A DNA stretch of 38,435 nucleotides from assembly GCA_036397555.1 (NCBI GenBank), contig DASWIS010000026.1, positions 1-38,435 on the forward strand, read 5' to 3'. This document shows, one piece after another, positions 1,543-18,014 of this stretch. Source of the DNA: Candidatus Zixiibacteriota bacterium (GTDB lineage Bacteria > Zixibacteria > MSB-5A5 > WJJR01). Below the pieces are notes generated by a model. That model was not told where the DNA came from and searched no databases. It was given only the letters and a program-made list of their open reading frames with translations. The translations under genes were made by a program, and so were the position numbers. The first letter of the stretch is position 1, and the number at the start of each line of letters is the position of its first letter.

Positions 1543-2132
1543 CGCGGTCGCCAAGGAAGCAGTCTGCCTGGGTTCGTTCAAGGCACGAATCCCCGCCCGA
1601 CGCTCGCGAGGCGACTTCGTGAGCAATCAGTGATGTAGCGGCCGTTCTTCGTCCCAGTCGGCGGACGAAATGGATAAGCTATGATATAACAAGCTGATAC
1701 GAGGGTTTTCCGCTGATCTGACGTCATCGGCCACCGTGCGGCACAAAAATCCCTGGGACTTTGACAACTCGTTATATAGCAATATCATAGGAATCACGTA
1801 CAATCGCGATTGCCTCCGGATTTCATTAGCGAAAGTGTTCCGAACCTCGTATTATCTATAGGGATAGCGTAAGTACCTCGGTAGTGGTTCCGGGATCGCC
1901 AGTATAGCTTGCGGCGACTTCCATTCCCGGTCGCACAACTTAAGACTCTGGATTCGCGCACGGTATATCCCGGCGCTTGAAAGCGACGGCCAAGAATGTT
2001 CGGATAGGAACAGTCAACGCGGACGGCTTGACCGAAGGGATCGTCAGAGCGTCGGATGATCCCGGAAGTTGGGGCAAGCCACAATCTCCGCCTCACACAG
2101 CCCCGGCAGGGGACACCGTGAAGGAGGAAGCT
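1543..2132. other. Divergent intergenic region / long leader of the aminomutase-like gene
   Basis: No protein gene is supported. AT-rich patches contrast with the GC-rich surroundings. A perfect 9-base inverted repeat, CTATGATAT (1679-1687) and ATATCATAG (1782-1790), brackets about 94 bases; its right arm overlaps a good plus-strand promoter. A second pair, ATATAAC (within 1684-1690) and GTTATAT (1771-1777), is nested inside. If the promoter is used, the leader before the ATG at 2133 is about 340 nt, long enough for a regulatory RNA, but I recognise no riboswitch consensus. A minus-strand ORF crossing this region and the next gene is a shadow. Confidence 0.4.
1761..1788 (+). promoter_or_regulatory. 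Sigma-70-type promoter candidate for the aminomutase-like gene
   Basis: TTGACA (1761-1766, 6/6 to the -35 consensus), a 16-base AT-rich spacer, and TATCAT (1783-1788, 5/6 to the -10 consensus). It is the best-looking promoter I found in the window. It faces the gene at 2133 and overlaps one arm of a 9-base inverted repeat, which could be an operator. Confidence 0.55.
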
Positions 2133-3299
2133 ATGACGCAGACAACCACCGGGCCGACCGCCAGGAGGCGGCGCGCCAAGTACGTCACCCATCTGGACCG
2201 CGTGACCGAACTCTCGGAACGAGAACGGCTCGCCCTCAAGCCGGTGACCGAGCGCTTTGCTTTTCGAGCGAATGATTACTACCTCAATCTGATCAACTGG
2301 GACGACCCCAATGATCCGATACGCCGCCTTGTGATTCCCCATGCGCAGGAAGCATTTGAGTTCGGCAATTGGGATGCCTCCAATGAATCGGCGATCACCG
2401 TACAGCACGGTGTGCAGCACAAATACGGAACAACAGTTCTGCTGCTGGTCAATGAGGTATGCGACGCTTACTGCCGCTATTGTTTCCGCAAGCGGCTCTT
2501 CACCAATGACAACGACGAAACGATCAACGATGTCTCCGCCGGCATTGAATACATTCGCGAGCACGCCGAAGTCGACAATGTCCTGCTGACCGGTGGCGAT
2601 CCGATGCTGTTGTCGAATCGGCGCCTCGACGGCGTGCTTTCGGCGCTGCGGGAAATCGACCATGTCCGGATCATCCGCATCGGCAGCAAGACGCCCGCCT
2701 TCAATCCGTTTCGCTTCCACGATCCCGAACTGCTCGCCATCTTCCGCAAGCATTCGCAACGCGACCGCCGCATCTATCTGATCTGCCATTTCGATCACCC
2801 GGTCGAGCTCACCGAGGAAAGCCGTGAGGCGTTGCGCCTGGTGCAGGAGGCGGGAGTCATCTGTGTCAACCAGTGCCCGATCATCCGCGGCATCTCCGAC
2901 GACCCGGGCGTGCTCTCGGCGCTCTGGAACGAGTTATCGTATCTTGGGGTGACGCCTTACTACATTTTTCAATGCCGGCCGACCGCGGGCAACTCGGCCT
3001 TCGAGCTGCCGATCACCGAAGCATATTTCAATATCGAAGAGGCCAAACGCCGTTGCTCGGGACTCGCCAAGCGCATCAAGTACGTTATGTCGCACGAGTC
3101 CGGAAAGATCGAGATCCTTGCGGTCGACGCGGAACACGTTTACCTGCGCTACCATCGCGCCAGGAACGCTGAGGACGAACAGCGCTTCATCGCGTGCGAG
3201 CGCAACGACGAAGCATTCTGGCTCGATCAGCTCCGGCCGCTGCCGGGGTACGTCAACGAGTACTACTCGAAAGCCGATCAGTTCCACGCCGTGGCGTGA
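2133..3299 (+). CDS. KamA-family radical SAM enzyme (lysine 2,3-aminomutase-like, substrate unknown)
   Basis: A 388-residue radical SAM/PLP protein of the lysine 2,3-aminomutase family. The [4Fe-4S]-binding motif CDAYCRYCF gives Cys110, Cys114 and Cys117, and LLTGGDPMLL is the SAM-binding GGD segment. The region SGLAKRIKYVMSHESGKIEI aligns with the KamA segment holding the PLP-binding lysine (PGGGGK in classical enzymes); here it is SGK, with Lys325 the likely Schiff-base lysine. The two aspartates that bind the lysine side chain in clostridial KamA fall at QCRP and YVMS here, so both appear lost. Lysine is therefore probably not the substrate. The start is fixed by AAGGAGG at 2121-2127, five bases before the ATG; the frame is open further upstream from a TTG at 1977. 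An intrinsic terminator follows directly. Confidence 0.85.
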   Translation: MTQTTTGPTARRRRAKYVTHLDRVTELSERERLALKPVTERFAFRANDYYLNLINWDDPNDPIRRLVIPHAQEAFEFGNWDASNESAITVQHGVQHKYGTTVLLLVNEVCDAYCRYCFRKRLFTNDNDETINDVSAGIEYIREHAEVDNVLLTGGDPMLLSNRRLDGVLSALREIDHVRIIRIGSKTPAFNPFRFHDPELLAIFRKHSQRDRRIYLICHFDHPVELTEESREALRLVQEAGVICVNQCPIIRGISDDPGVLSALWNELSYLGVTPYYIFQCRPTAGNSAFELPITEAYFNIEEAKRRCSGLAKRIKYVMSHESGKIEILAVDAEHVYLRYHRARNAEDEQRFIACERNDEAFWLDQLRPLPGYVNEYYSKADQFHAVA

Positions 3300-3319
3300 C
3301 AAACTCATCAAGACATCAC

Positions 3320-3348
3320 ACGGGCGGCCGATGCAGGCCGCCCGTTTT
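3320..3348 (+). terminator. Intrinsic terminator after the aminomutase-like gene
   Basis: A perfect stem CGGGCGGCC (3321-3329) / GGCCGCCCG (3336-3344), extended by an A-T pair, with a 6-base loop and the T-tract TTTT at 3345-3348. It starts 20 bases after the stop codon and separates this gene from the aminotransferase gene. Confidence 0.9.
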
Positions 3349-3424
3349 GAATGTGCATGGTCCTGTCTGATCCTGAAAAATGTTCGTGGCGCGGGCACTG
3401 GGGTCGGCCTATGATGGCGGCGCC

Positions 3425-4750
3425 ATGCACCTTCCCGCGGGAGCCGATGTGAGAATCGACAAACCGGTCAGTCTCAACATGAATGTCCGCGCCCTGGGGC
3501 AGTCTGCCACGCTGGCGATCAACGACATCAGTCGCAAGTTGAGCGCCGAAGGACACACGGTGTACCGGCTGGGATTGGGACAGTCCCCCTTTCCAGTACC
3601 ACAACCGGTAGTGGAAGCGCTCAAGGCGAACGCCCACGAGAAGGATTACCTCCCCGCAGCCGGACTCCCGGCGCTGTGCCAGGCGGTCGCCGACCACCAT
3701 CGGCGTCGCGATGGCGTCGAAATACGTCCGAGGGACGTACTGGTCGGGCCCGGCTCCAAGGAACTGATGTTTCTCTTGCAGTTGGTCTATTACGGAGAGT
3801 TGATCGTGCCGACTCCGTGCTGGGTCTCGTATGTGCCGCAGGCGGCGATCCTGGGACGACACGTAAGTCTCGTCCCAACCTCGGCGGACGATGGCTGGCA
3901 CATGACGGCCGAGAGTCTCATCAGTCTCTGCGAGCTTGAACGCGATGACTACCGACCGCGTATCCTGGTCCTCAACTATCCCAGCAACCCGGTCGGAAGC
4001 TCTTACACGACCGATGAACTGAAAGAACTGGCAGGCGTCGCCCGCAAATTCCAAGTCATCGTGCTCTCCGATGAAATCTACGGCCCCCTGCACCATCGGG
4101 GTGAGCACGTCTCGATCGCGCGCTACTATCCCGAGGGGACGATCATCAGTTCGGGGTTGTCGAAGTGGTGTGGCGCCGGCGGGTGGCGGCTGGGAACGTT
4201 TGCGTTTCCCAGCTCTCTGGATTGGCTGCATGCGAAGATGGCCGCCGTCGCCAGCGAGACCTACACTTCGGTCAGTGCACCGATTCAGTATGCGGCTGTC
4301 CGTGCCTTCGAGGGCGGGACAGCGATCGAACAGTATCTGTGCCATGCGCGTCGGATCCTCTCAGGTCTCGGACAACAATGCGTGGCCACGCTGACCCGAT
4401 CGCATATCAGCGTGACTCCGCCCGTGGGCGCATTCTATCTCTTCTTAGACTTCACTCCGCTGATGGACCATCTGGCCAGGCGCGGAATCCGGACGAGCGA
4501 TGCACTCTGTTCCAGACTGCTGGTAGAGACCGGTGTCGCTGTTTTGCCGGGAAACGCCTTCGGACGCCCCCCCCGCGAATTGACGGCGCGGTTGGCCTAT
4601 GTCGATTTCGATGGAGCAAAGGCGATGGCCGCCAGTGAGACGGTTCCCCTCGATCAGCCGCTGTCCGACGATTTCGTCGAATTGCTCTGTCTCAACGTGA
4701 TGAAGGCGACACGTCTCCTGGCCGATTGGGCAAACGGCGTCGATTCCTGA
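3425..4750 (+). CDS. PLP-dependent class I aminotransferase
   Basis: A fold-type I aminotransferase. It carries the substrate and cofactor motifs of the family: NYPSNPVGSSY (cofactor-contacting Asn), LSDEIYG (Asp and Tyr contacting the pyridine ring) and SGLSKWCGAGGWRLG. The Schiff-base lysine in SGLSK is residue 247 with this start, and the last motif also holds the phosphate-binding Arg. It should transfer an amino group between an amino acid and a 2-oxo acid in the cytosol; the substrate cannot be assigned. The protein ends with an extra helical stretch of about 30 residues. Starts at 3380, 3425 and 3479 are all ATG and in frame, and none has a good ribosome-binding site; 3425 has GGCGGC upstream. 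The terminator upstream implies its own promoter, so it need not share a pathway with the aminomutase-like gene. Confidence 0.87.
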   Translation: MHLPAGADVRIDKPVSLNMNVRALGQSATLAINDISRKLSAEGHTVYRLGLGQSPFPVPQPVVEALKANAHEKDYLPAAGLPALCQAVADHHRRRDGVEIRPRDVLVGPGSKELMFLLQLVYYGELIVPTPCWVSYVPQAAILGRHVSLVPTSADDGWHMTAESLISLCELERDDYRPRILVLNYPSNPVGSSYTTDELKELAGVARKFQVIVLSDEIYGPLHHRGEHVSIARYYPEGTIISSGLSKWCGAGGWRLGTFAFPSSLDWLHAKMAAVASETYTSVSAPIQYAAVRAFEGGTAIEQYLCHARRILSGLGQQCVATLTRSHISVTPPVGAFYLFLDFTPLMDHLARRGIRTSDALCSRLLVETGVAVLPGNAFGRPPRELTARLAYVDFDGAKAMAASETVPLDQPLSDDFVELLCLNVMKATRLLADWANGVDS

Positions 4751-5783: not shown

Positions 5784-7838
5784 GTGAGCACACCCTTCGC
5801 CAGCAAAGAAGTCAGTTGGCTGTCGTTTAACGAACGCGTCCTGCAGGAAGCTTCCGATCCGTCGGTTCCTCTGATGGAGCGGATACGCTTCATGGGGATA
5901 TTCTCCGCGAACCTCGACGAGTTCTTCCGCGTGCGAGTGGCGACCCTGCAGCGGCTCGCCCGTCTGGGCAAACAGGCCAAAACGAGCGAGGGCCACAATC
6001 CCAAGAAAGTGCTGAAGGATGTGCAGGATATCGCGCTCCGCCAGTATCAGCGGTTCGACCAGGTGTACGAGGAGATCCTCAGGGTGCTGGCGGAACGCGA
6101 TATCCACTTCGTCACCGAAACAGAATTGACCGACGACCAGATGGAGTTTCTCAAATCGTACTTCCACAGCGCGGTACGCCCTCGCATCAGCCCGTTGCTG
6201 ATCGATCAACTGTCCAAGCTGCCCGATCTGCGTGACGATGCGACCTATCTGGCGGTCATCCTCCGCAACGGGGCGGGCAAATCATCGCCCAAACACGCGT
6301 TGATCGAGGTCCCTACAGGCGTGCTGCCGCGCTTTTTGTTGCTGCCCGCGGAGGGGAAAAAGCGATACGTCATGTTTCTCGACGATGTCGTCCGTTTCGG
6401 CCTCAAGCACATCTTCCGCGTGCTGCACTTTACGACGTACGAGGCGTACGCGATCAAGTTCACACGCGACGCAGAACTCGACTTCGATGACGACGTCTGG
6501 GACAGTTACATCAAGCGCGTCTCGCGCAGCCTGAAGCATCGCAAGGCCGGCATCCCGGTCCGCTTTGTGTACGACGCGAGGATTCCCCCGTCGCTGTTAC
6601 AGGTTCTCGTCAAGAAACTGCGTCTGACCAAGGACGATCCGTTGATTCCCGGCGGGCGATATCACAACTTCCGCGACTTCATGGTATTCCCCGAGCTGGA
6701 GTTGGGCAACGGGCGCTACGAGCCGCTGAAGCCGCTGTTCCCGGCCAGCGTGGACCGACGACGGCAACTGACCGATTCGATCGCGAAACGCGACATCCTG
6801 GTCCACTATCCGTATCAGACGTTCCAATACGTCGTCGACTTTCTCCGTGAAGCGTCGATCGACCCGCAGGTCCGGTCGATCAAATGCATGCTGTATCGGA
6901 TCGCCAGGGTCTCATCGGTCGCCAATGCGTTGATCAATGCGGCCCGCAACGGCAAACGCGTGACGGTCGTGCTGGAACTGCAGGCGCGCTTCGACGAAGA
7001 GAACAACATCTACTGGTCCAACCGTCTGCAGGAGGAGGGCGTGCGTGTCCTGCACGGAATTCCGGGGCTCAAAGTCCACGCCAAACTCTGTCAGATCACG
7101 AGGCAGGAGAAAAAATCCTCGATCCGATACGCCATCATCGGCACCGGCAATTTCAACGAGGAAACAGTCCGGACGTACAGCGACCACTGCCTGTTCACAG
7201 CGGACAAACGACTGACCGCTGAAGTGGCGCAAGTCTTTCAGTTTTGCGAGAGCACATTCCGTGCCCCGAGATTTCGGCACCTCTGGGTCGCGCCCTTCGA
7301 CATGCGCAAGAAGCTGCTGCGCCACATCCATGAGGAGATACGCACTGCGCGCAAGGGCCGCGAAGCATTCATCACGATCAAGGTCAACAACCTCGCCGAG
7401 GGCGAGGTGGTCCGCGCGCTCTACCGCGCCGCCCAGGAAGGCGTCCAGGTTCGGCTGATTGTCCGATCGATGATGTCGCTCATTCCCGGACGCGAGGGAC
7501 TCAGCGAGAATATCCAGGCCGTCGGCATCGTGGATCGCTTCCTGGAGCATACGCGCATCTTCGTGTTCGGCGGCGCGGGGCACCCTCAATACTTCATCTC
7601 ATCGGCCGATCTGATGCAACGGAACCTCGATCGTCGACTGGAGGTCGTCTGCCCGATCTACGATGCGTCACTCCAAAAGGAACTGCAGCGGTTCCTCGAC
7701 ATCCAATGGGCGGACAACGTCAAATCGCGAGTTCTGGACAGTGCACTGACCAACCGAATCCGCAACGGAACCGGCGGGCCGTCCGTGCGCGCACAGCAGT
7801 CCATCTATGACTACCTCAAAACGCAAGCGGTCGAGTAA
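5784..7838 (+). CDS. ppk: Polyphosphate kinase 1
   Basis: PPK1 reversibly transfers the terminal phosphate of ATP onto long-chain polyphosphate at the inner face of the membrane. Length (684 residues) matches the family. The N-terminal domain begins with SWLSFNERVLQEA. The autophosphorylated histidine lies in LKVHAKLCQI (His432, equivalent to His435 in Escherichia coli PPK), followed by YAIIGTGNFNEETVRTYSDH. The second essential histidine is in RFLEHTRIFVF (His589, equivalent to His592), followed by SSADLMQRNLDRRLEV. It uses a GTG start at 5784 with GAGAGG upstream; no ATG lies near. The 3' end overlaps the following exopolyphosphatase gene by 32 bases, which suggests translational coupling of synthesis and breakdown enzymes. 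Confidence 0.96.
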   Translation: MSTPFASKEVSWLSFNERVLQEASDPSVPLMERIRFMGIFSANLDEFFRVRVATLQRLARLGKQAKTSEGHNPKKVLKDVQDIALRQYQRFDQVYEEILRVLAERDIHFVTETELTDDQMEFLKSYFHSAVRPRISPLLIDQLSKLPDLRDDATYLAVILRNGAGKSSPKHALIEVPTGVLPRFLLLPAEGKKRYVMFLDDVVRFGLKHIFRVLHFTTYEAYAIKFTRDAELDFDDDVWDSYIKRVSRSLKHRKAGIPVRFVYDARIPPSLLQVLVKKLRLTKDDPLIPGGRYHNFRDFMVFPELELGNGRYEPLKPLFPASVDRRRQLTDSIAKRDILVHYPYQTFQYVVDFLREASIDPQVRSIKCMLYRIARVSSVANALINAARNGKRVTVVLELQARFDEENNIYWSNRLQEEGVRVLHGIPGLKVHAKLCQITRQEKKSSIRYAIIGTGNFNEETVRTYSDHCLFTADKRLTAEVAQVFQFCESTFRAPRFRHLWVAPFDMRKKLLRHIHEEIRTARKGREAFITIKVNNLAEGEVVRALYRAAQEGVQVRLIVRSMMSLIPGREGLSENIQAVGIVDRFLEHTRIFVFGGAGHPQYFISSADLMQRNLDRRLEVVCPIYDASLQKELQRFLDIQWADNVKSRVLDSALTNRIRNGTGGPSVRAQQSIYDYLKTQAVE

Positions 7839-8769
7839 CGGCGGGACGCACGCGCCGCCCGGAATCAAGTTTGCGGCCGTCGATGTCGGCTCCAACGGCG
7901 TCCGGCTGATGCTCGCGCGCGTCATCGGCAACAACGGCGCGCCCGTGGTGAAGAAAGAGTCGTTAATCCGTATCCCGATCCGCCTCGGTGAGGATGTCTT
8001 TTCCGGCCGGCCGATCTCGAAGCAGACGATCCGCACCCTGTCGGAAACCATGCGGGGTTTTCAGCACTTGATCACGGCCTATGAGCCCGTCGATGTCGCC
8101 GCCTGCGCCACGTCGGCGATGCGCGAGGCCAGAAACGGCCCCGACCTCGTCGAGGCGATTCGCGCAGAGAGCGGAATCGATCTGGAGATCATCGACGGCG
8201 CCCGCGAAGCCGAGTTGATCGCCGCGAATGTCTATGGGAGCAGCGCCGACCTCGATCGTCCGCTCTTGCACCTGGACATCGGGGGCGGCAGCATCGAACT
8301 GACGCTCTTTGATGGCGGCGAACGCGCCGACAGCCGCTCGTTTCGGATCGGCACCGTGCGCCTGCTCAAAAATCAGGTGGCCGATGAGGAGTGGGGCGCC
8401 TTGAAGGACTGGCTGCGGCACCTGGCGCGCACGCACGAGCGCATCATCGCTCTGGGCAGCGGCGGCAGCCTCAACAAGCTGTTCCGCATGTCGCGGGTCA
8501 AAGAGGGACGCCCGGTGACCTACAAGCAGTTGAAGGAACTGGCGCGCGTCATTGCCTCGTATTCGTACGAGGAACGCATTCTGCAACTGAGCATGCGGCC
8601 CGATCGCGCCGATGTGATCGTGCATGCCGGCGATATCGTGCTGTCGGTCATGAAATGGGCGCGCATCTCCAAGATGCTCGTGCCCCAGGTCGGATTGGCG
8701 GATGGCCTCATTCGTCAGTTGTACGCGCGCCATACCGCCGCGACCAGCGACGCCCCGGCACGAGCGTGA
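7807..8769 (+). CDS. ppx: Exopolyphosphatase / Ppx-GppA family phosphatase
   Basis: A 320-residue Ppx/GppA protein, which hydrolyses polyphosphate from its ends or converts pppGpp to ppGpp. The actin-like ATPase-fold motifs are present: AAVDVGSNGVRLM (first phosphate loop), ACATSAMREARN, and LHLDIGGGSIELTLF (second phosphate loop), then IALGSGGSLNKLF. The protein ends soon after the second actin-like lobe, so it lacks the C-terminal HD-type domain of E. coli Ppx; short forms are common outside proteobacteria. The ATG lies inside ppk, giving a 32-base overlap, and the basic N-terminal tail of about 20 residues precedes the fold. No other start codon fits. Direct linkage to ppk favours the polyphosphate role. 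Confidence 0.92.
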   Translation: MTTSKRKRSSNGGTHAPPGIKFAAVDVGSNGVRLMLARVIGNNGAPVVKKESLIRIPIRLGEDVFSGRPISKQTIRTLSETMRGFQHLITAYEPVDVAACATSAMREARNGPDLVEAIRAESGIDLEIIDGAREAELIAANVYGSSADLDRPLLHLDIGGGSIELTLFDGGERADSRSFRIGTVRLLKNQVADEEWGALKDWLRHLARTHERIIALGSGGSLNKLFRMSRVKEGRPVTYKQLKELARVIASYSYEERILQLSMRPDRADVIVHAGDIVLSVMKWARISKMLVPQVGLADGLIRQLYARHTAATSDAPARA

Positions 8770-8823
8770 CGCCGCATCACAAACGATGTTCGGCCCGACC
8801 CGTGCATCGTGCGGAGCGGTTCC

Positions 8824-9708
8824 ATGGAGTTGCTCACGACCCCACGTACGACGATCGCGGTCTTCATCGGAGAACTGTCCGAGACTATCCGTCAGCTTGC
8901 ACGCTCGGCCCGACGGGACGGTGCCGCCGATGATTTTCATCGATTGCGCGTCGCGATCAAGCGCCTGAGGGCCCTTGCGGCCCATGCCCGCGACACGGGA
9001 AACACAAATCAAACCGATCCGCCCCGGCGCCTGCTGAGACGTCTCTTCCGGGCCGCCGGACGGGTCCGCAACTGCCATGTCCGCAAACAGCGCATCATTC
9101 GGCATTGGGAGCTCTCCCCCGATTCTCTGAGTGAGTATTTCAATGATCTGACCGCACACGAGGCGGTGGCCCGACACCATTACGACCGCGTCGCGCGCGC
9201 ACACGAGGCGCGCATGTTCCAGAGCATCTCCGAACGGATGATGCGCGAATTCGAGCGCCGAAACGGCGATGATTTGGCGCAGCGGTCGGTGCACAGCATC
9301 CTGTCGCTGCTCGACTTGTTGGTGGGGGCCGATTTGAACTCCACGGAGATCAACTTTCACACCGTGCGAATTCTGGCGAAGGAAACACGATACCGGATCG
9401 AGTTCGTGCGCGACTGCGTGGTTTCGCTGGATGTCTTCGATCGCCTCGGGATCGCACTGCGCGATGTGCATCGGGCGCTGGGATTGTGGCACGACCGGGA
9501 TGAATCGGTGTACGCGTTGGACGCCTTCATCGCCAGGTCCGAAAACGCGACGCTGCTGAGGGAACCTCCCTATGCGCAGTTCCGCCTGACCCTCCTGCGA
9601 GAGGGCGCTGCGGCGCTCAATTGCTTCTTCGGGAAATGGATGGATCTGAAGGAACAGTTGCCCGCGTTTCGTTTGGAATTATCGCGTTTCCCGGACCGAC
9701 AGACTTAA
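8824..9708 (+). CDS. CHAD domain protein
   Basis: CHAD domains are alpha-helical bundles rich in conserved His, Arg and Lys that bind polyphosphate. Two CHAD signatures are visible: DDFHRLRVAIKRLRAL (His39 with this start) and FHTVRILAKETRYRIEFV, one for each half of the bundle, with many basic side chains between. The ATG at 8824 has GGAG (8813-8816) seven bases upstream and is preferred over an in-frame GTG at 8809. At 294 residues it is a stand-alone CHAD protein with no CYTH (triphosphatase) domain attached. Its place after ppk and ppx fits a polyphosphate-binding role, perhaps organising granules; that is inference from context and family behaviour. Confidence 0.88.
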   Translation: MELLTTPRTTIAVFIGELSETIRQLARSARRDGAADDFHRLRVAIKRLRALAAHARDTGNTNQTDPPRRLLRRLFRAAGRVRNCHVRKQRIIRHWELSPDSLSEYFNDLTAHEAVARHHYDRVARAHEARMFQSISERMMREFERRNGDDLAQRSVHSILSLLDLLVGADLNSTEINFHTVRILAKETRYRIEFVRDCVVSLDVFDRLGIALRDVHRALGLWHDRDESVYALDAFIARSENATLLREPPYAQFRLTLLREGAAALNCFFGKWMDLKEQLPAFRLELSRFPDRQT

Positions 9709-10921: not shown

Positions 10922-12472
10922 ATGAACGTCCCGTTAACCGATACCTCGCGAATCATACTTGAGAAGACCGGCATCTTCGCCGGTCTGCCGTCTGACGCTC
11001 TGATTTCGGTGCGTGCGTTTATGGAGGCGCGCGACGTTCCGGCGGGCACAGTTCTGTTCCGCGAGGGTGACAGCGGCGACAGCGTCTTCGTCGTTCGCCA
11101 GGGATTGGTGCGGATTCTCAAGGAGCAGGACGACACGACCGTTGAACTGGCACAGCGAGGTCCCGGTGAAATCATCGGCGAGATGGCGCTGATCGATGCG
11201 AGTCCGCGTTTCGCCAGCGCGCAATGCATCGAAGATACGTCACTCTTTGTCCTCTCGCGGTCGCATTTCTTCAAGATGCTCTCCTCCCATCCGCTCGTGG
11301 CCGAGCGAATTCTGCATGTTCTCACGGCGCGTGTGCGCGAAGCGGACACAACACGCCTGCGCGAGCTGGAATCCAGCAACCGCGACCTGCGGCAGGCGCA
11401 TCAGCGTCTGGAGACCGCGCTGCGGATTCGCCAGCAGATTCTGCATGTGGCTCCGTATCCGATCGTCGTGACCAATCCGCAACGCGAGGTGTTGTTTTCC
11501 AATCCGGCGGCGGTCTCAGCTTTCGGGCTGCAGGCGGGCCGGGGATTGTGGCAGTGGATCAATGTCCGCGATGTGAAACTGCGACATCAGGCCGACACCG
11601 CGGAGACGTCGATGGCCGCATGGCGCGGCGAGATGGAAATCGACGGTCCCGACGCGCAGGTGCTGCTGTGCAAAGTGAACGCCACCCCCATTACCGACAC
11701 CGGCGATGGTACCCCTGGACGACTTTGGGTCTTCGAAGACTTGACCGAGGTCCGGGTGTTGGAGAGACAGGCCGCGGAGCATGAGCGACTCGCGATGAAA
11801 GGCGAGATGGCCTCCGAGATTGCCCATGAGTTGAAAAACTATCTAATGGTTCTGTCCGGCCATACCGACCTCATGGAGGTTCGCTTCAACCGTGAAGACC
11901 TCAATGGCATTCAGGCCTCGCTCGGCGCCGTTCATCAGACCGTCGGCCAGATGCGCGTCTTTGTCGAAAGCCTGTTGCACTCACGGCACCCCTCCGGGGA
12001 GCGCTGTCCGCTCGATCTCAATGCCTTTCTGGAAGGTCAGATCGCATTTCTCCAGCCGCAGAGGAGATTTAAGGGGATCGATTTTCGGACTAATCTCGGG
12101 CAGAATGTCCCACTCCTGGTCTGCGACGCCGCCGGACTGCAGCAGGCGCTCTACAATCTCGTGCTGAATTCGACCGATGCCATGCGGGCCGCCGCTACGT
12201 CGTCCCCGACGATCCACCTGGCCACGAGCCATGACACGGCCGGGCAGCGGCTGGTACTAAGCGTCGCCGACAACGGTCCCGGCATCCCACCCGACATTGC
12301 GCGCCTCTTGTTCAAGGAGCGCGTATCGTCCAAACCGACCGGCCACGGATTCGGAACCCTGACCGTTGCACGTATTGTCGCCGAGCACGGCGGTTCGATT
12401 CAAGCCGGTTCGCGCGCCGGAGGCGGTGCGGAGTTTGTGCTCTCGTTCCCCGTGTCCCAGGCGAATTCCTGA
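10922..12472 (+). CDS. Cyclic-nucleotide-binding, PAS-containing sensor histidine kinase
   Basis: Domains in order: a cyclic nucleotide-binding (CNB) domain (residues ~15-140) with VLFREGDSGDSVFVVRQG and the phosphate-binding cassette GEIIGEMALIDASPRFASA, which keeps the Glu and Arg used to bind cyclic nucleotide; a coiled-coil linker; a PAS domain (~175-280, APYPIVVTNPQREVLFSNPA); then the kinase core. The H-box is IAHELKNYLMVLSGH with phospho-acceptor His302, the N-box NLVLNSTDAM, the G1 box DNGPGIP and the G2 box GHGFGT. There is no membrane segment, so it should act in the cytosol. No response regulator gene is in the window. The start is uncertain: GTG at 10898 is in frame, and neither start has a strong ribosome-binding site. 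It leads a three-gene run with a DUF3307 protein (11-base gap) and a class III cyclase, which suggests it senses that cyclase's product. Confidence 0.9.
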   Translation: MNVPLTDTSRIILEKTGIFAGLPSDALISVRAFMEARDVPAGTVLFREGDSGDSVFVVRQGLVRILKEQDDTTVELAQRGPGEIIGEMALIDASPRFASAQCIEDTSLFVLSRSHFFKMLSSHPLVAERILHVLTARVREADTTRLRELESSNRDLRQAHQRLETALRIRQQILHVAPYPIVVTNPQREVLFSNPAAVSAFGLQAGRGLWQWINVRDVKLRHQADTAETSMAAWRGEMEIDGPDAQVLLCKVNATPITDTGDGTPGRLWVFEDLTEVRVLERQAAEHERLAMKGEMASEIAHELKNYLMVLSGHTDLMEVRFNREDLNGIQASLGAVHQTVGQMRVFVESLLHSRHPSGERCPLDLNAFLEGQIAFLQPQRRFKGIDFRTNLGQNVPLLVCDAAGLQQALYNLVLNSTDAMRAAATSSPTIHLATSHDTAGQRLVLSVADNGPGIPPDIARLLFKERVSSKPTGHGFGTLTVARIVAEHGGSIQAGSRAGGGAEFVLSFPVSQANS

Positions 12473-12483
12473 GCAGGCGCATC

Positions 12484-12825
12484 ATGGATCTCATGTGGTT
12501 TCTGTTGCTGGGGCATCTGACCGGGGATTTCGCGCTGCAGTCTGACCACATGGCGCAACGCAAAGGAACGTCCATCGCGGTCCTCACCGCTCACGTCGTC
12601 GTGTACACCCTGTGCATCGCAGTCGGGCTGTACGGTTTCCGCCTGTGCGTGGGTGTCTGGGGTGCCGGGACAGCGCTGACCGGTCTGCTGTTGGCGCTGC
12701 TCTTCAGCGTACACTGGGCGCAGGATTTCATCAAGTCGCGTTACTTTCATTCACGGCAGGCGTTCTACGTCGATCAAACCCTGCATGTGCTTCAACTGTT
12801 CGCGCTGCGATGGCTGCTGATGTGA
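12484..12825 (+). CDS. DUF3307 small membrane protein
   Basis: A 113-residue protein matching DUF3307 by its opening GHLTGDFALQSDHMAQRK and by HWAQDFIKSRYF, with three to four hydrophobic segments. The family has no known function. It begins 11 bases after the kinase and its end overlaps the cyclase start by 16 bases, so all three are probably translated from one message. Longer relatives have a cytosolic extension that is absent here. Its role as a membrane anchor or input for the kinase or cyclase is possible but unproven. Confidence 0.8.
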   Translation: MDLMWFLLLGHLTGDFALQSDHMAQRKGTSIAVLTAHVVVYTLCIAVGLYGFRLCVGVWGAGTALTGLLLALLFSVHWAQDFIKSRYFHSRQAFYVDQTLHVLQLFALRWLLM

Positions 12826-15800
12826 CAAAGCTGACAACGCTGTCGGCGCGCGCTGCGTGCCTGGTGCCCCGTCGGTTGTGGACCCTTCAGGGGCCATCCT
12901 CTCTGCAACGCTCTTCGGGCGTGGTGTTGTTCGCCGATATCGCCGGGTTTACGGCGATGACCGAACGCGCGCGGCGTCGTCACGGCGAGCGCGGTATTGA
13001 GGTGCTCACACAGCGGTTGAATATCGTGTTTAAGTCGATGGTCGATGTCGTCGCCACGGCGGGCGGCGATGTCCTCAAGTTCGGCGGCGATGCGCTGTTG
13101 GTGGCCTTCGACGATCAACGGTCTCCGCATGATCGCTGGTCTGCTCCGTTGTGGTGTGCCGACCGTCTGCAGCGACTATTCCGGCGAGGCCGACACTCTG
13201 TGTCCGGCGGCTCGCTGTCGTTACGAGTCGGCATGTCGTATGGCGGGTGGCAGGAAGCCATCGTCGGCGCCGTGGGCGGGCGGCGCGAGCACTTTGTCGA
13301 TGGGGCCGCGATCGCAGACGCGATCGACGCCTCCGGTGAGGCGGTTCAGCGCGGATGTCTGATTCGCGCATCACGACCACTGCTCCCCAGACAAGAGCAC
13401 GTGCGATTGACCGCTGCGGGTCGTGGGCGCTGGACCGTTGTACCGCCGAAACGTCCGTGGGGCCACCCCACCCCAGTCTCGAAATCCGCGGACCCTCTGG
13501 CCGACAACTTGTCCGACTTCATCCCGACCCTGCTTCGGTCCCGTCTCTCCGATGAGCAGTTTGTGCCGCTGGACGCCGGCGAACACCGGCGGGTCTGCAC
13601 CCTCTTTCTGTTTTGGAAGCACTCCGAATTGTCAACGGTGGCATCGGACCGGCATTCGACGATCTGGGACGACGTGCACCGGTGCGTAAGCGATGCGGCA
13701 CAGACCCATACCGGACTGTGGGCACGCAGTGATCCCGGCGGACCGTATCAAAAGATCCTCATCCTGTTTGGGGCGCCGGTCGCAGCCGCCGATGATGTCG
13801 ACCGCGCGCTGTGCTGTGCGGCCGACCTGTGTGACCGATTCACGGCGCTGCAAACAAGTCATCGCCGCGTCCGCTTTGGAATCGGTCTGACAGTCGGCAG
13901 CGTCTATACCGGGTATGTCGGCGCGCCCGGACGTTACGAGTTCACGGCCATGGGTGATGCGGTCAATCTCGCAGCACGATTGGCGTCGAAAGCACCATCG
14001 GGCGCAGTTTATGTCGATGCGCAGACCGCGTCGCAGTCGGGCCGCTGGCGATTCCGGCCGGGACCGTCGTTGCGACTGAAGGGCGTGGCCCGGCCTGTGC
14101 CGGTTCTGTGTCCGATTGAGAGATTGGCGGAAGAGGCGGCAACCGACGACGACGCCGTGGTTGAGCACCCCTTCGCCATGAAGCGCGCATTGTCATTATT
14201 GCAGGAAGTGCCGCGAAGGTCGATCGAAGTTGTCGCTGCCGCCGACACCGATCCGGGCCGATTTGCTCGACAACTCGCCGATCGCCTCGGGCATGACGAT
14301 TGTTTCATCATGCGCCATCGATTCCGTCCGCAGACGGAATCACACCCTCATTCAGGACTGACCGATTGGCTGAAATCGCTGGGGCACAGTGCCCCAATCG
14401 ACAGCGAGCAGCACAATGGCGCGCGTACAGCAACGGAACATGCCGTGGAAGCGGCGTTGCGCAACGAATCGGCCTTCACCCGATCGATCAGTCGGGTCGG
14501 TGCCGGGGCATGGGCGGAACGCGTCGCCCGCTATGTCGCAACGCATCCGGTCCTGGTGTCCACAGGTCATGACCACACACTGCACCTGCTCGAAGAGGCA
14601 CAGTCACTCTCGGCGATCGATCGCGCAGTCTTCGAGTCACTGCGCCGCCTTCACGGCCAGCGCTGGCAGTTGGTGCTGCTCCGGCGGGAGCATGGTACGT
14701 CACCGGAGACAGCCGACGACAGTGCGGTCCGGCTGGCGGCATTGTCCCAACTGGAGATGCGTACGGTCATTGGCGAGACATTGGGACACGCCGCCATTCC
14801 GAATCGTCTCGTAGGGTTCGTGCAAGCGAAGTCACGCGGGCTGCCGCGCATTGCGCGTCTCTTCGTGACGGGACTTCTGACCGGCGGACACCTGCGCCCA
14901 CACCGAAAGCCGAACGACTCATGGCGGCTGCTGGCATTGGATGATGCCTCCCTCCCGACGGACCTTCGCGCGCATTACATCCAGCGTGTCGACGCACTGT
15001 CCCCGCAGGCGATCTTGTTCGCCCGCACGCTGGCGGTCCTGGGCGGCAGTATCTCCGAGTCCGGACTGCGGGCGGTTTCCGGCGAGCCGGATTGCGCACG
15101 TGCGATCGAAGAATTGCATCGGGCGGGATTGGTGACGGCCGACACAGCACCGCAACGGACGATTGAATTTATTGAGCCGGCGTGTCGCGACGCTGTCTAC
15201 GAGACCATGTCGTATGCGGGCCGTGAAGCGCTGCATCGTCGGGCCGTGGCCTATTGGCGCCGTGAAAAGGTGCGTGGCCGCAACGAGGTGGCCGAGCATC
15301 TGTTCTGGTCGCGCGATCCCAAAGCGCACCCGCCTTTGCTGGCCTCGGCACGACGTGCACGACGGCTGTGGGCATTGGACCGCGCGGCTCGATTCTATCG
15401 CTGGGCGCTGTTGGCGCTGGATCGGCGTTTTGATGACGGGACCGGGAGCGGATTGCCGCCGATGCCGGCATCCCTAAACGACGTTCACCGCGCCGTACTC
15501 AATGAATTCGCCGATGTGCTGCAGCAGTCCGGTCAGTATGTCGATTCGATCCGGCTCTACGATCGACTGGCTCGCGACGCACGATCGCGACGCGCCAAGG
15601 CGCAAACAGGAGCGTATCGTCTGTCGATGGCGCGTGTGGCGTGGTTGAGCGGCCGTTACGGCATCGCGGAACGTGTCGCCGCGTCCGTGCAGAAGAGCGC
15701 GGCCCGCAGTCGCAATCAGACATTGGAAGCCCATGCGCTCTCGATCCTGGCGGATACGTTTCGCAGAACCGGACGACTTGTCAAAGCCCGCGATGCGCTG

Positions 15801-16946
15801 CATCGGGCCATTGCCGTGTACCGGCGTGGGCGAGACGACGAGGCATGGGCCGATGCGCAAAACGCACTCGGCCTGGTCGAGTGGAACGCGGGCCAACTGG
15901 AGACGGCGCGTGAGTGTTTTCAGGACGCGATGTCGCGCATGTCCGGGCGCTCCGGTCCGCTCAAGCGCGGACGCGTCGCCAATAATCTGGGGCTGCTGTT
16001 CGAAGAGGCGGGGCGACTGACCGTCGCGCGGCGATACTACGAACGCGCCTTCCGCATCTTCGACCGCCTCGGACACACTCGTAATCGTTCCTACTGTCTG
16101 GGCAATCTCGGAAATCTCCATCGCCACGCCGCCCGGTATGAACATGCGCGCAATGCGTATGAGGAAGCGCAGCACGAGTTCCGTGCCATCGGCGAACAGC
16201 ACGCCGCCGCATATACGACGGGCAATCTGGGCGATTTGGCGTTCGACTTCGGCAATGCTCAACAGGCGTTGTCATTGTATCAGCGCACATTGGAGTTCGC
16301 CGTTTCAGTGGGCGATCTGGAGCTCGTTGCAGAGAGCTGTGCCCGTGTGGCCTCGGTGCATTTGGCCGCCGGACGCGCGGATCAGGCGCGCCGTTTCATC
16401 CGAGAATCACATCAGGCGGCGACACAGGCGCGGTCGCAGGAATTCCTGTTGCGGGCACGGCTGCTCGCGGCGGACTTGACAACCAGTGATGGAAAGCACG
16501 CCGACGCGCTCCACGAGTATGAGCGAGCCGCTGACGATTCGACGGAAACCGGCCTTTTGTTCTACCGGCTCTGGGCGCAGTACGGACGCGCTCACTGCGC
16601 TCTATCCGGGGACCGTCTAATCGAGGCCGGGGAAATCGCCCAAGCCGGGTCACGGGACGCGCATCGCGCAGGATACACCTGGTGGGAACTGCGCTTTGCC
16701 GTCATCAATGCGCGCACACAATCACACGTAAGCGCCACGCACCGACGCACAAAAAACGCAGGCACGACTTTGAAGAGGGCCGTACGACTGATCGACCAGA
16801 TTCGTCGGACGATCGGCGAGACATCCGTGCGTGGGCAGTTCGACCGATTGCCGGTGGTATTGACTGTCAACAGAATTATCGATGATACAGACCGTCCGGA
16901 CATCGCCCGATCGCACACAGCCGACATGCCCGATCTCACGCTTTGA
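12810..16946 (+). CDS. Soluble adenylyl cyclase-like protein: two class III cyclase domains, decayed P-loop region, TPRs
   Basis: A 1378-residue cytosolic protein. Cyclase domain C1 (~35-185) has VVLFADIAGFTAM and LKFGGDALLVAF, giving the two metal-binding Asp43 and Asp94. C2 (~258-435) lacks both (Phe268 replaces the first) but has YEFTAMGDAVNLAARL, giving transition-state Asn386 and Arg390, and a Lys315 where soluble adenylyl cyclase has its adenine-contacting lysine. C1 lacks the Asn/Arg pair, so the domains look complementary and should build one active site, as in mammalian ADCY10. A STAND/AAA-like region follows, with the P-loop position reading AAADTDPGRFARQL, without the GxxGxGK consensus. 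From about 830 to 1290 are TPR-type helical repeats (for example NNLGLLFEEAGRLTVARRYY and GNLGNLHRHAARYEHARNAY). The ATG at 12810 overlaps the DUF3307 gene; the open frame before it is a shadow. Confidence 0.88.
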   Translation: MAADVTKLTTLSARAACLVPRRLWTLQGPSSLQRSSGVVLFADIAGFTAMTERARRRHGERGIEVLTQRLNIVFKSMVDVVATAGGDVLKFGGDALLVAFDDQRSPHDRWSAPLWCADRLQRLFRRGRHSVSGGSLSLRVGMSYGGWQEAIVGAVGGRREHFVDGAAIADAIDASGEAVQRGCLIRASRPLLPRQEHVRLTAAGRGRWTVVPPKRPWGHPTPVSKSADPLADNLSDFIPTLLRSRLSDEQFVPLDAGEHRRVCTLFLFWKHSELSTVASDRHSTIWDDVHRCVSDAAQTHTGLWARSDPGGPYQKILILFGAPVAAADDVDRALCCAADLCDRFTALQTSHRRVRFGIGLTVGSVYTGYVGAPGRYEFTAMGDAVNLAARLASKAPSGAVYVDAQTASQSGRWRFRPGPSLRLKGVARPVPVLCPIERLAEEAATDDDAVVEHPFAMKRALSLLQEVPRRSIEVVAAADTDPGRFARQLADRLGHDDCFIMRHRFRPQTESHPHSGLTDWLKSLGHSAPIDSEQHNGARTATEHAVEAALRNESAFTRSISRVGAGAWAERVARYVATHPVLVSTGHDHTLHLLEEAQSLSAIDRAVFESLRRLHGQRWQLVLLRREHGTSPETADDSAVRLAALSQLEMRTVIGETLGHAAIPNRLVGFVQAKSRGLPRIARLFVTGLLTGGHLRPHRKPNDSWRLLALDDASLPTDLRAHYIQRVDALSPQAILFARTLAVLGGSISESGLRAVSGEPDCARAIEELHRAGLVTADTAPQRTIEFIEPACRDAVYETMSYAGREALHRRAVAYWRREKVRGRNEVAEHLFWSRDPKAHPPLLASARRARRLWALDRAARFYRWALLALDRRFDDGTGSGLPPMPASLNDVHRAVLNEFADVLQQSGQYVDSIRLYDRLARDARSRRAKAQTGAYRLSMARVAWLSGRYGIAERVAASVQKSAARSRNQTLEAHALSILADTFRRTGRLVKARDALHRAIAVYRRGRDDEAWADAQNALGLVEWNAGQLETARECFQDAMSRMSGRSGPLKRGRVANNLGLLFEEAGRLTVARRYYERAFRIFDRLGHTRNRSYCLGNLGNLHRHAARYEHARNAYEEAQHEFRAIGEQHAAAYTTGNLGDLAFDFGNAQQALSLYQRTLEFAVSVGDLELVAESCARVASVHLAAGRADQARRFIRESHQAATQARSQEFLLRARLLAADLTTSDGKHADALHEYERAADDSTETGLLFYRLWAQYGRAHCALSGDRLIEAGEIAQAGSRDAHRAGYTWWELRFAVINARTQSHVSATHRRTKNAGTTLKRAVRLIDQIRRTIGETSVRGQFDRLPVVLTVNRIIDDTDRPDIARSHTADMPDLTL

Positions 16947-17049: not shown

Positions 17050-17643
17050 TCAGTTGATCCCATACTTTGAGAAATGATGAATCTCGAAGGAGACGGAGCC
17101 GTTCTGGACCTCGGCCGTCCCTTCGACCTGCCAGCGGCTTTTGTTGGGATTGTACCACCACAGTGTCTTGACCGTCCCATCAGGGTCATGGCACTCCTGC
17201 GTCAGTGTGGCGGGTATGTTGAACTCCAGCCCGTCCGGACTGCAATCATAAACAGTCGCCACGCCCCACGGAGTGTTCACCTGCACCGCACGAAGCTCGA
17301 TCGCCACGGTGTATTCGAGAGCGCCCGGCGGCACGATCAAGACGCTGCTGAGGTCGCCCAGTTCCAGTTCGATCAGCCCGCCGTCGGACCCGATGGAGAC
17401 GATGTTGCCGAGCAGGTCGAAGAAAAAGCCCAGCAATTGTTCGGGCTGATCGCCATCATCACCGCTGCCGCCGCCGCCAATGAGATGCTCCAGTTGGCTG
17501 TCGGCCGTCGTAATACTGCCAAGACTGTCGTTGTTCGCAGTCGGTGCCAGCCCATTTTGGCCGCATCCGGCGAAGATCAGGATGATCGCCGCCAGGCACG
17601 TGACGAATGTCGCGGCCAAGGTCAGTCGTCGCATCCAGCTCAC
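17050..17643 (-). CDS. Lipoprotein with ZU5-like domain
   Basis: A secreted lipoprotein of 197 residues. The signal sequence MSWMRRLTLAATFVTCLAAI runs into a lipobox IFAGC, so Cys27 should be lipidated. After a Gly/Asp-rich linker (HLIGGGGSGDDGDQ), residues ~85-195 resemble a ZU5-type beta domain: GGLIELELGDLSSVLIVPPG, EYTVAIELRAVQ, then a segment with LWWYNPNKSRWQ and a final SFEIHHFSKYGI. Such domains occur in bacterial surface lipoproteins of unknown role. The start is chosen as GTG at 17643 because GGAGG sits directly upstream at optimal spacing; ATG codons at 17667 and 17655 extend the frame by 8 or 4 residues. It stands alone between two operons. Confidence 0.75.
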   Translation of the reverse strand: MSWMRRLTLAATFVTCLAAIILIFAGCGQNGLAPTANNDSLGSITTADSQLEHLIGGGGSGDDGDQPEQLLGFFFDLLGNIVSIGSDGGLIELELGDLSSVLIVPPGALEYTVAIELRAVQVNTPWGVATVYDCSPDGLEFNIPATLTQECHDPDGTVKTLWWYNPNKSRWQVEGTAEVQNGSVSFEIHHFSKYGIN

Positions 17644-18014
17644 ATCAACCTCCATTCGTTTCACCATTCATAGGGTCCCGTCGATCTCCCGCCGATTCAG
17701 GACCGCTTTAGTCGGTGCAACTGTGCTGCCCATCGGCACTCATACTTGAACAGCACGTCATGATGTTGCCGGTCAATGCGTTCCGTATGATGCCTGCCGT
17801 GGCAGGTTCAAAGTCTGATCAATTCTACTCAAGCGAGAAGGCAGAATCCCTTGGGATGCTCCCATAGTGTAGGGGTGACTCGGCAACACTTTAGAGGGAC
17901 CGATCGGTTGACGGCATGCGCCGAACGCTATAGTGTGCCGGCGTATCGTTGGTGATCTTACGGCTCCGTGTGGGTCGCTACAGCGGTCTGTGGCAACGCA
18001 CGTCGGGCATAACG
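17644..18014. other. Divergent intergenic region between lipoprotein and antiporter
   Basis: No gene is supported in these 371 bases. They should contain back-to-back promoters for the lipoprotein gene (leftward) and the antiporter gene (rightward). One plus-strand promoter candidate is listed separately; I see no convincing minus-strand promoter and no strong repeat. Confidence 0.4.
17908..17934 (+). promoter_or_regulatory. Promoter candidate for the antiporter gene
   Basis: TTGACG (17908-17913, 5/6) and TATAGT (17929-17934, 5/6) are separated by 15 bases, slightly short of the usual 16-18. The predicted leader before the ATG at 18015 is about 75 nt. Confidence 0.4.

Follow-up and report, generated by a model that had tools for sequence, protein, structure and literature searches.

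Introduction

The pairing of a nucleotide cyclase with a receptor that carries a cyclic-nucleotide-binding (CNB) domain is an already known signalling logic, and CNB domains, AtoS-like histidine kinases and cyclases resembling the soluble adenylyl cyclase (sAC) are all known kinds of protein. In human sAC (ADCY10), Asp47 and Asp99 are the metal residues, and Thr405, Asn412 and Arg416 belong to the active site (PMC12250328, PMC12867704). Here we describe a 38,435-nucleotide stretch of DNA from Candidatus Zixiibacteriota (contig DASWIS010000026.1, hereafter the window), in which three adjacent genes encode a histidine kinase with an N-terminal CNB domain, a small membrane protein of the DUF3307 family and an sAC-like cyclase. 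An earlier reading of the DNA letters (the sequence-only reading) knew of no described system with this exact trio, and we likewise found none with a kinase, DUF3307 and cyclase trio in the open-access literature, where DUF3307 is mentioned in a single paper out of 5.39 million. We propose that the trio is probably a self-contained relay that turns a cyclic-nucleotide signal into phosphorylation, with DUF3307 as its part at the membrane.

A gene trio conserved in order and occurrence

All three genes lie on the plus strand and begin with ATG. The CNB-PAS-HisKA-HATPase histidine kinase occupies positions 10922-12472 (GTG 10898 is an alternative start), the DUF3307 protein 12484-12825, and the sAC-like protein of 1378 amino acids 12810-16946. 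The open frames bear out the 11-base gap between the kinase and DUF3307 genes and the 16-base overlap of the DUF3307 and cyclase genes that the sequence-only reading had pointed to. Its protein assignments also held. The kinase has a Pfam cNMP_binding match at its N-terminus. The middle protein matches PF11750 (E 7.2e-13, 49.1 bits against a cut-off of 23) and has hydrophobic stretches of sufficient length to span a membrane. The kinase and the cyclase have none of that length. The class III cyclase matches Guanylate_cyc (E 2e-12) and is, more exactly, of the tandem C1-C2 soluble-adenylyl-cyclase type. A scan for promoters and terminators gave sites no commoner than in shuffled sequence.

A DUF3307 search over 146 relatives returned 33 matches, including the window's own, and 31 of the regions were read. 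In the 29 close matches (L032-L060), the CNB-kinase, DUF3307 and cyclase genes follow each other in identical order on one strand, contig ends aside; such ends leave L049 without the cyclase and L057 without most of its kinase. Adjacent genes of the trio overlap or are at most ~30 bases apart, except for one fragmented frame in L051, and order and strand are kept down to ~30% identity. The named genomes with the trio are almost all Candidatus Zixiibacteriota, together with one metagenome-assembled genome (MAG) labelled Calditrichaeota (L079). Conserved synteny had been set beforehand as a test, and the trio is intact in every close relative whose contig permits a view. The trio turns up again in every relative open to inspection, and its arrangement is more than a chance one.

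Co-occurrence was counted in 127 related genomes, with a cyclase scored at E < 1e-10. DUF3307 is present in all 30 genomes carrying the cyclase and in just 2 of the 97 without it, one in which the contig stops after DUF3307 (G007) and one of the SatD type described below (G070). The Fisher p for this association is 4e-27, a value that overstates the evidence since the relatives are not independent. Pairwise distances of the kinase and of the cyclase correlate with r 0.94, which plain shared descent would also be expected to produce.

The cyclase looks catalytically competent

The cyclase consists of tandem C1-C2 halves and an extension of ~900 residues with ATPase-like and TPR parts. Its best relative of solved structure by phmmer is human ADCY10 (E 5e-24), which aligns in two stretches, with both halves covered. 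The C1 half (12912-13379, +), delimited by this match, holds the metal residues D43 and D94 as well as K90, and the C2 half (13572-14129, +), delimited by the ADCY10 comparison and the alignment, holds T379, N386, R390 and the conserved K315. The alignment places a STAND/AAA-like ATPase region at 14127-15449 (+), and matches to TPR_12 and TPR_MalT place a TPR region at 15645-16583 (+).

Asp47, Asp99, Thr405, Asn412 and Arg416 of ADCY10 correspond to D43, D94, T379, N386 and R390 in the window, and these five residues are kept in all relatives that have a letter at the position. The cyclase looks catalytically competent because its catalytic residues are conserved. One could suppose instead that the cyclase-like protein has no catalytic activity and serves as a sensor or scaffold, in which case the trio would be no more than an ordinary operon of an orphan kinase. 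The equivalent of Lys334, which reads the base through water in human sAC, is indeed missing (Pro in the window and variable in relatives), and the P-loop of the ATPase region (GxxGxGKS), intact in most relatives, is lost in the window's own family (the window, L032, L033 and L034). But both metal Asp residues and the active-site Asn and Arg are retained in every covering relative, and we consider a dead cyclase quite improbable. K315, near the Lys334 site, is almost invariant across relatives, and Lys144 of human sAC is replaced by Arg in the window and by His in most relatives.

The bicarbonate switch in its mammalian form consists of Lys95 and Arg176. The Lys is kept in 27 of 27 sequences and the Arg was never found, its equivalent being Ile in the window and Tyr or Phe in most relatives. 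Bicarbonate sensing like that of mammalian sAC was rejected because Arg176 is missing. The same Arg is also missing from most non-mammalian sAC (PMC12867704).

The window's genome measures 2.63 Mb and is estimated to be 100% complete. Its only matches to PF00211 are the two halves of the trio cyclase, in a search that covered this class alone and does not exclude divergent cyclases.

The kinase as a candidate receptor

In the kinase, Pfam detects cNMP_binding (E 1.3e-21), PAS, a weak HisKA (E 0.0047) and HATPase_c (E 1.9e-20), and the core is AtoS-like according to the NCBIfam AtoS model (E 9e-46). The CNB domain (PF00027; 11030-11290, +) contains the cassette GEMALIDASPRFAS, whose E95 and R104 (numbered from GTG 10898) are found in 29 of 29 covering sequences, in line with the Glu and Arg that the sequence-only reading had noted in the cassette. 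By alignment of relatives, the phospho-acceptor His of the H-box (EIAHELKN) is encoded at 11825-11827 (+), and it is present in 28 of 29 relatives.

PF00027 matches only two proteins in the window's genome, the kinase and one standalone CNB protein. The latter (G000:C21:35726-35974; L209 2562-3062) has ~167 residues and is a possible second receptor. If the cyclase product is a 3',5'-cyclic nucleotide, two candidate receptors for it were found in the genome, of which the kinase is one. The reading that the operon makes and senses its own nucleotide gains weight because the trio contains the sole class III cyclase found and its kinase is one of two CNB proteins.

Alternatively, the cyclase and the kinase may share a membrane input through DUF3307, in which case the product would not be the ligand of the kinase and the CNB domain would be structural or a degenerate regulator. 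In favour of this view, a Phe directly follows the key Arg of the cassette, and the standalone CNB protein could be the receptor instead. However, invariance of the cassette Glu and Arg in all 29 sequences, across ~30% identity, is unexpected for a degenerate domain, and besides the kinase only one other CNB protein was found in this genome. We regard a shared input of this kind as unlikely.

DUF3307 and its neighbours in other bacteria

The AlphaFold2 model of the DUF3307 protein (pLDDT 95.9) shows four main helices (residues 3-17, 31-56, 63-87 and 91-112) and a short one (21-26). Eleven polar residues are near-invariant in 113 sequences (H11, D15, Q19, K27, H37, H77, D81, K84, D97, Q98 and H101), and by their helix positions in the model they sit at those helix ends that the first and third loops connect. 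Positive charge is concentrated in these two loops, so by the positive-inside rule the conserved polar residues are predicted to face the cytoplasm. The motif HxxxD occurs twice, and an internal repeat is weak by profile (P 0.017). Among structures in the PDB, neither Foldseek (best E 2) nor VIA (best Z 6.6) gave a fold match to DUF3307 that stood out from the noise of helical bundles. The conserved residues might reasonably be taken to form a site for a metal, an anion or a substrate.

Outside the class, 25 genomes were also searched with PF00211, and in 9 of them DUF3307 lies no more than 3 kb from a cyclase; cyclase counts and genome sizes would predict 0.14 such genomes (Poisson P 6e-14). 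A CNB gene is adjacent in three more genomes, and five have SatD. With cyclase, CNB and SatD counted together, 17 of 28 outside-class genomes have such a neighbour. CHASE2-type class III cyclases lie upstream of DUF3307 in several genomes (Pfam-confirmed in L151 and in the cyanobacterial L091 and L111), CNB genes directly before it in L156, L160 and L204, and SatD directly before it in L143-L145, L147, L203 and L207. A cyclase or CNB frame is also found within 3 kb in 24 of 26 distant named loci (L086-L111), which are mostly of one lineage: picocyanobacteria for the most part, with two gammaproteobacterial MAGs and one Roizmanbacteria MAG.

In the phylum of genome G333, apparently Bacteroidota-like, DUF3307 is present in 48 of 198 genomes, and SatD lies directly upstream in all 30 loci examined. 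For the N-terminus of SatD, hhalign gives a collinear alignment to a profile of class III cyclases (E 1.5e-5, probability 80%; control profiles of CNB, kinase, DUF3307 and lipoprotein, 0.07-0.6). We note that this match surfaced after several profiles: four SatD sequences gave nothing, and 34 sequences with a broader cyclase profile gave the match. It suggests, short of proof, that the SatD N-terminus has a cyclase-like fold. In the Bacteroidota-like loci L162-L191, a seemingly divergent class III cyclase-fold domain of SatD is followed by a helix-turn-helix. An apparent fusion of SatD and DUF3307 in G340 was rejected, as the overlapping open stretches are two genes in different frames.

Because cyclases, CNB proteins or SatD adjoin DUF3307 in other phyla, DUF3307 appears to be a general partner, at the membrane, of proteins with the cyclase fold. 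Its recurrent closeness to cyclases in other phyla supports the accessory role that the sequence-only reading had suggested for it.

DUF3307 may itself be a membrane enzyme. The two HxxxD motifs, together with Lys, Asp-Gln and His, would then build a site for metal or phosphate on the cytoplasmic side. Such an enzyme could be a membrane-embedded phosphodiesterase acting on the product of the cyclase, or could modify a lipid or nucleotide in the same circuit; either would be compatible with the relay. An enzyme would account for the near-invariance of eleven polar residues across 113 sequences, for helix positions that place them at one membrane face, cytoplasmic by loop charges, and for a protein that accompanies cyclases, CNB proteins and SatD alike. 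But the fold matches no known enzyme, and a ligand or ion sensor would suit the same conservation, which makes an enzyme possible but somewhat doubtful. Membrane anchor, sensor and enzyme are all compatible with the present data.

SatD-DUF3307 pairs are also carried by plasmids. The mobilizable Escherichia coli plasmid pEC34A (L198, NC_019077.1), only 3.77 kb long, carries a SatD-like gene and DUF3307 (1792-3481) as its main cargo, with close relatives on small Klebsiella plasmids. Further pairs were found on plasmids of Salinivibrio and Enterobacter, as well as in viral contig L193. In another viral contig of 131 kb (L194), DUF3307 (3944-4327) is directly followed by a phosphoesterase-like frame, with no cyclase, CNB or SatD nearby. 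No plasmid-borne DUF3307 close to that of the window was found.

These locations bear on whether the trio could be a Pycsar-like anti-phage system, composed of a cyclase, a nucleotide-triggered partner and a membrane component. A cyclase with an adjacent CNB receptor follows the same logic, the PycC and PycTIR profiles match through shared domains, and small plasmids as well as a viral contig carry SatD-DUF3307 pairs. Nevertheless, the trio shows stable order, co-occurrence and correlated distances within one phylum rather than a mobile patchwork, and its CNB protein is without TIR or another toxic effector. We find an anti-phage role very improbable. As a candidate, a defence system was rejected, PADLOC having no model for DUF3307 and the trio pattern being stable across the phylum.

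Genes around the trio

Downstream and convergent with the trio, a predicted lipoprotein with a ZU5-like domain (17050-17667, -) ends in HFSKYGIN; it was picked out as a family found beside the trio and by its ZU5 fold. This lipobox protein family adjoins the trio in 14 of 30 loci, with tandem copies downstream at L037 and L039-L042 among others. It is rare elsewhere: the window's genome has two copies, and every copy found in G081, G098 and G073 is by the trio. In Foldseek, every top match of the lipoprotein model is a ZU5 domain (E 5.5e-5), with a structural Z of 10.8 over 122 residues at 2.8 Å. In its C-terminal motif, His-Phe is invariant and Ser is present in at least 90% of sequences. Eukaryotic ZU5-like domains can self-cleave before Ser in a related motif (PMC3210808). 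Just upstream of the trio, the genes of a polyphosphate kinase, a Ppx/GppA phosphatase and a CHAD protein make up a polyphosphate cluster (5784-9708, +), which is not a conserved trio neighbour.

Discussion

In the relay we propose, the sAC-like enzyme would produce a 3',5'-cyclic nucleotide, most likely cyclic AMP (cAMP), with its ATPase-like/TPR region acting as the controlling sensor. The kinase of the same operon would bind this nucleotide through its CNB domain, and binding would alter kinase autophosphorylation and thereby the state of a response regulator whose gene lies elsewhere. DUF3307 would hold or tune the cyclase at the membrane through its conserved polar pocket facing the cytoplasm. 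The idea of one operon that both makes and senses a cyclic nucleotide, put forward by the sequence-only reading, is partly supported. The genes, their conserved order and near-perfect co-occurrence, the catalytic and binding residues and the DUF3307-cyclase association are observed; the synthesis, the nucleotide made, its binding, the gating, the role of DUF3307 and the partner regulator are what we infer from these.

Several observations weigh against the relay. Lys334 is unconserved, and the product could be a nucleotide other than cAMP; base specificity cannot be read from sequence. The Phe next to the cassette Arg belongs here, as does the shared-descent account of the distance correlation. 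In L052 (G038) the trio is kept, yet the kinase phospho-acceptor His is replaced by Cys (ELACTMGQF). No response regulator was found as a conserved neighbour family of the trio; many histidine kinases are without a neighbouring response regulator, and the window's genome encodes 32 receiver domains. Finally, 11 of the 28 outside-class DUF3307 genomes have no cyclase, CNB or SatD neighbour.

If the proposed relay is true, the trio would join cyclic-nucleotide signalling to two-component signalling by a direct, genetically fixed link, a single operon encoding both the maker and the reader of a messenger. DUF3307, which is present in several phyla, thereby acquires a role that can be tested, and the findings hint at the nature of SatD. 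As a tentative extension, nucleotide second-messenger systems throughout bacteria could have in DUF3307 a membrane component of their own, perhaps enzymatic, that works with class III cyclases, CNB receptors and SatD, the last being a divergent cyclase-fold protein in this view. The Zixibacterial trio would then be the kinase-coupled form, and the ZU5 lipoprotein may be an extracytoplasmic input or output.

Comparison with known systems

Like ADCY10 and other sAC-like class III cyclases, the trio cyclase has tandem C1-C2 halves, one complete set of catalytic residues and long C-terminal ATPase-like and TPR parts. It differs from ADCY10 in the replacement of Arg176 by Ile, in the unconserved Lys334 and in the P-loop lost in the window's family, and also in being encoded with a CNB kinase and DUF3307. 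The kinase shares the PAS-HisKA-HATPase core of AtoS/NtrB-type histidine kinases, but unlike these it has an N-terminal CNB sensor, no transmembrane segment and no neighbouring response regulator. The SatD-DUF3307 pairs of Bacteroidota-like genomes and small enterobacterial plasmids resemble the trio in that DUF3307 comes directly after a protein with an N-terminal match to the cyclase profile, whereas SatD has a C-terminal helix-turn-helix and no CNB kinase is present there. Pycsar (PycC with a CNB effector) likewise has a class III cyclase gene near a CNB gene, which in the trio are separated by DUF3307. In contrast to Pycsar, the trio's receptor is a PAS-HisKA-HATPase kinase without a TIR or transmembrane effector, and the trio is a conserved chromosomal gene set rather than a defence cassette.

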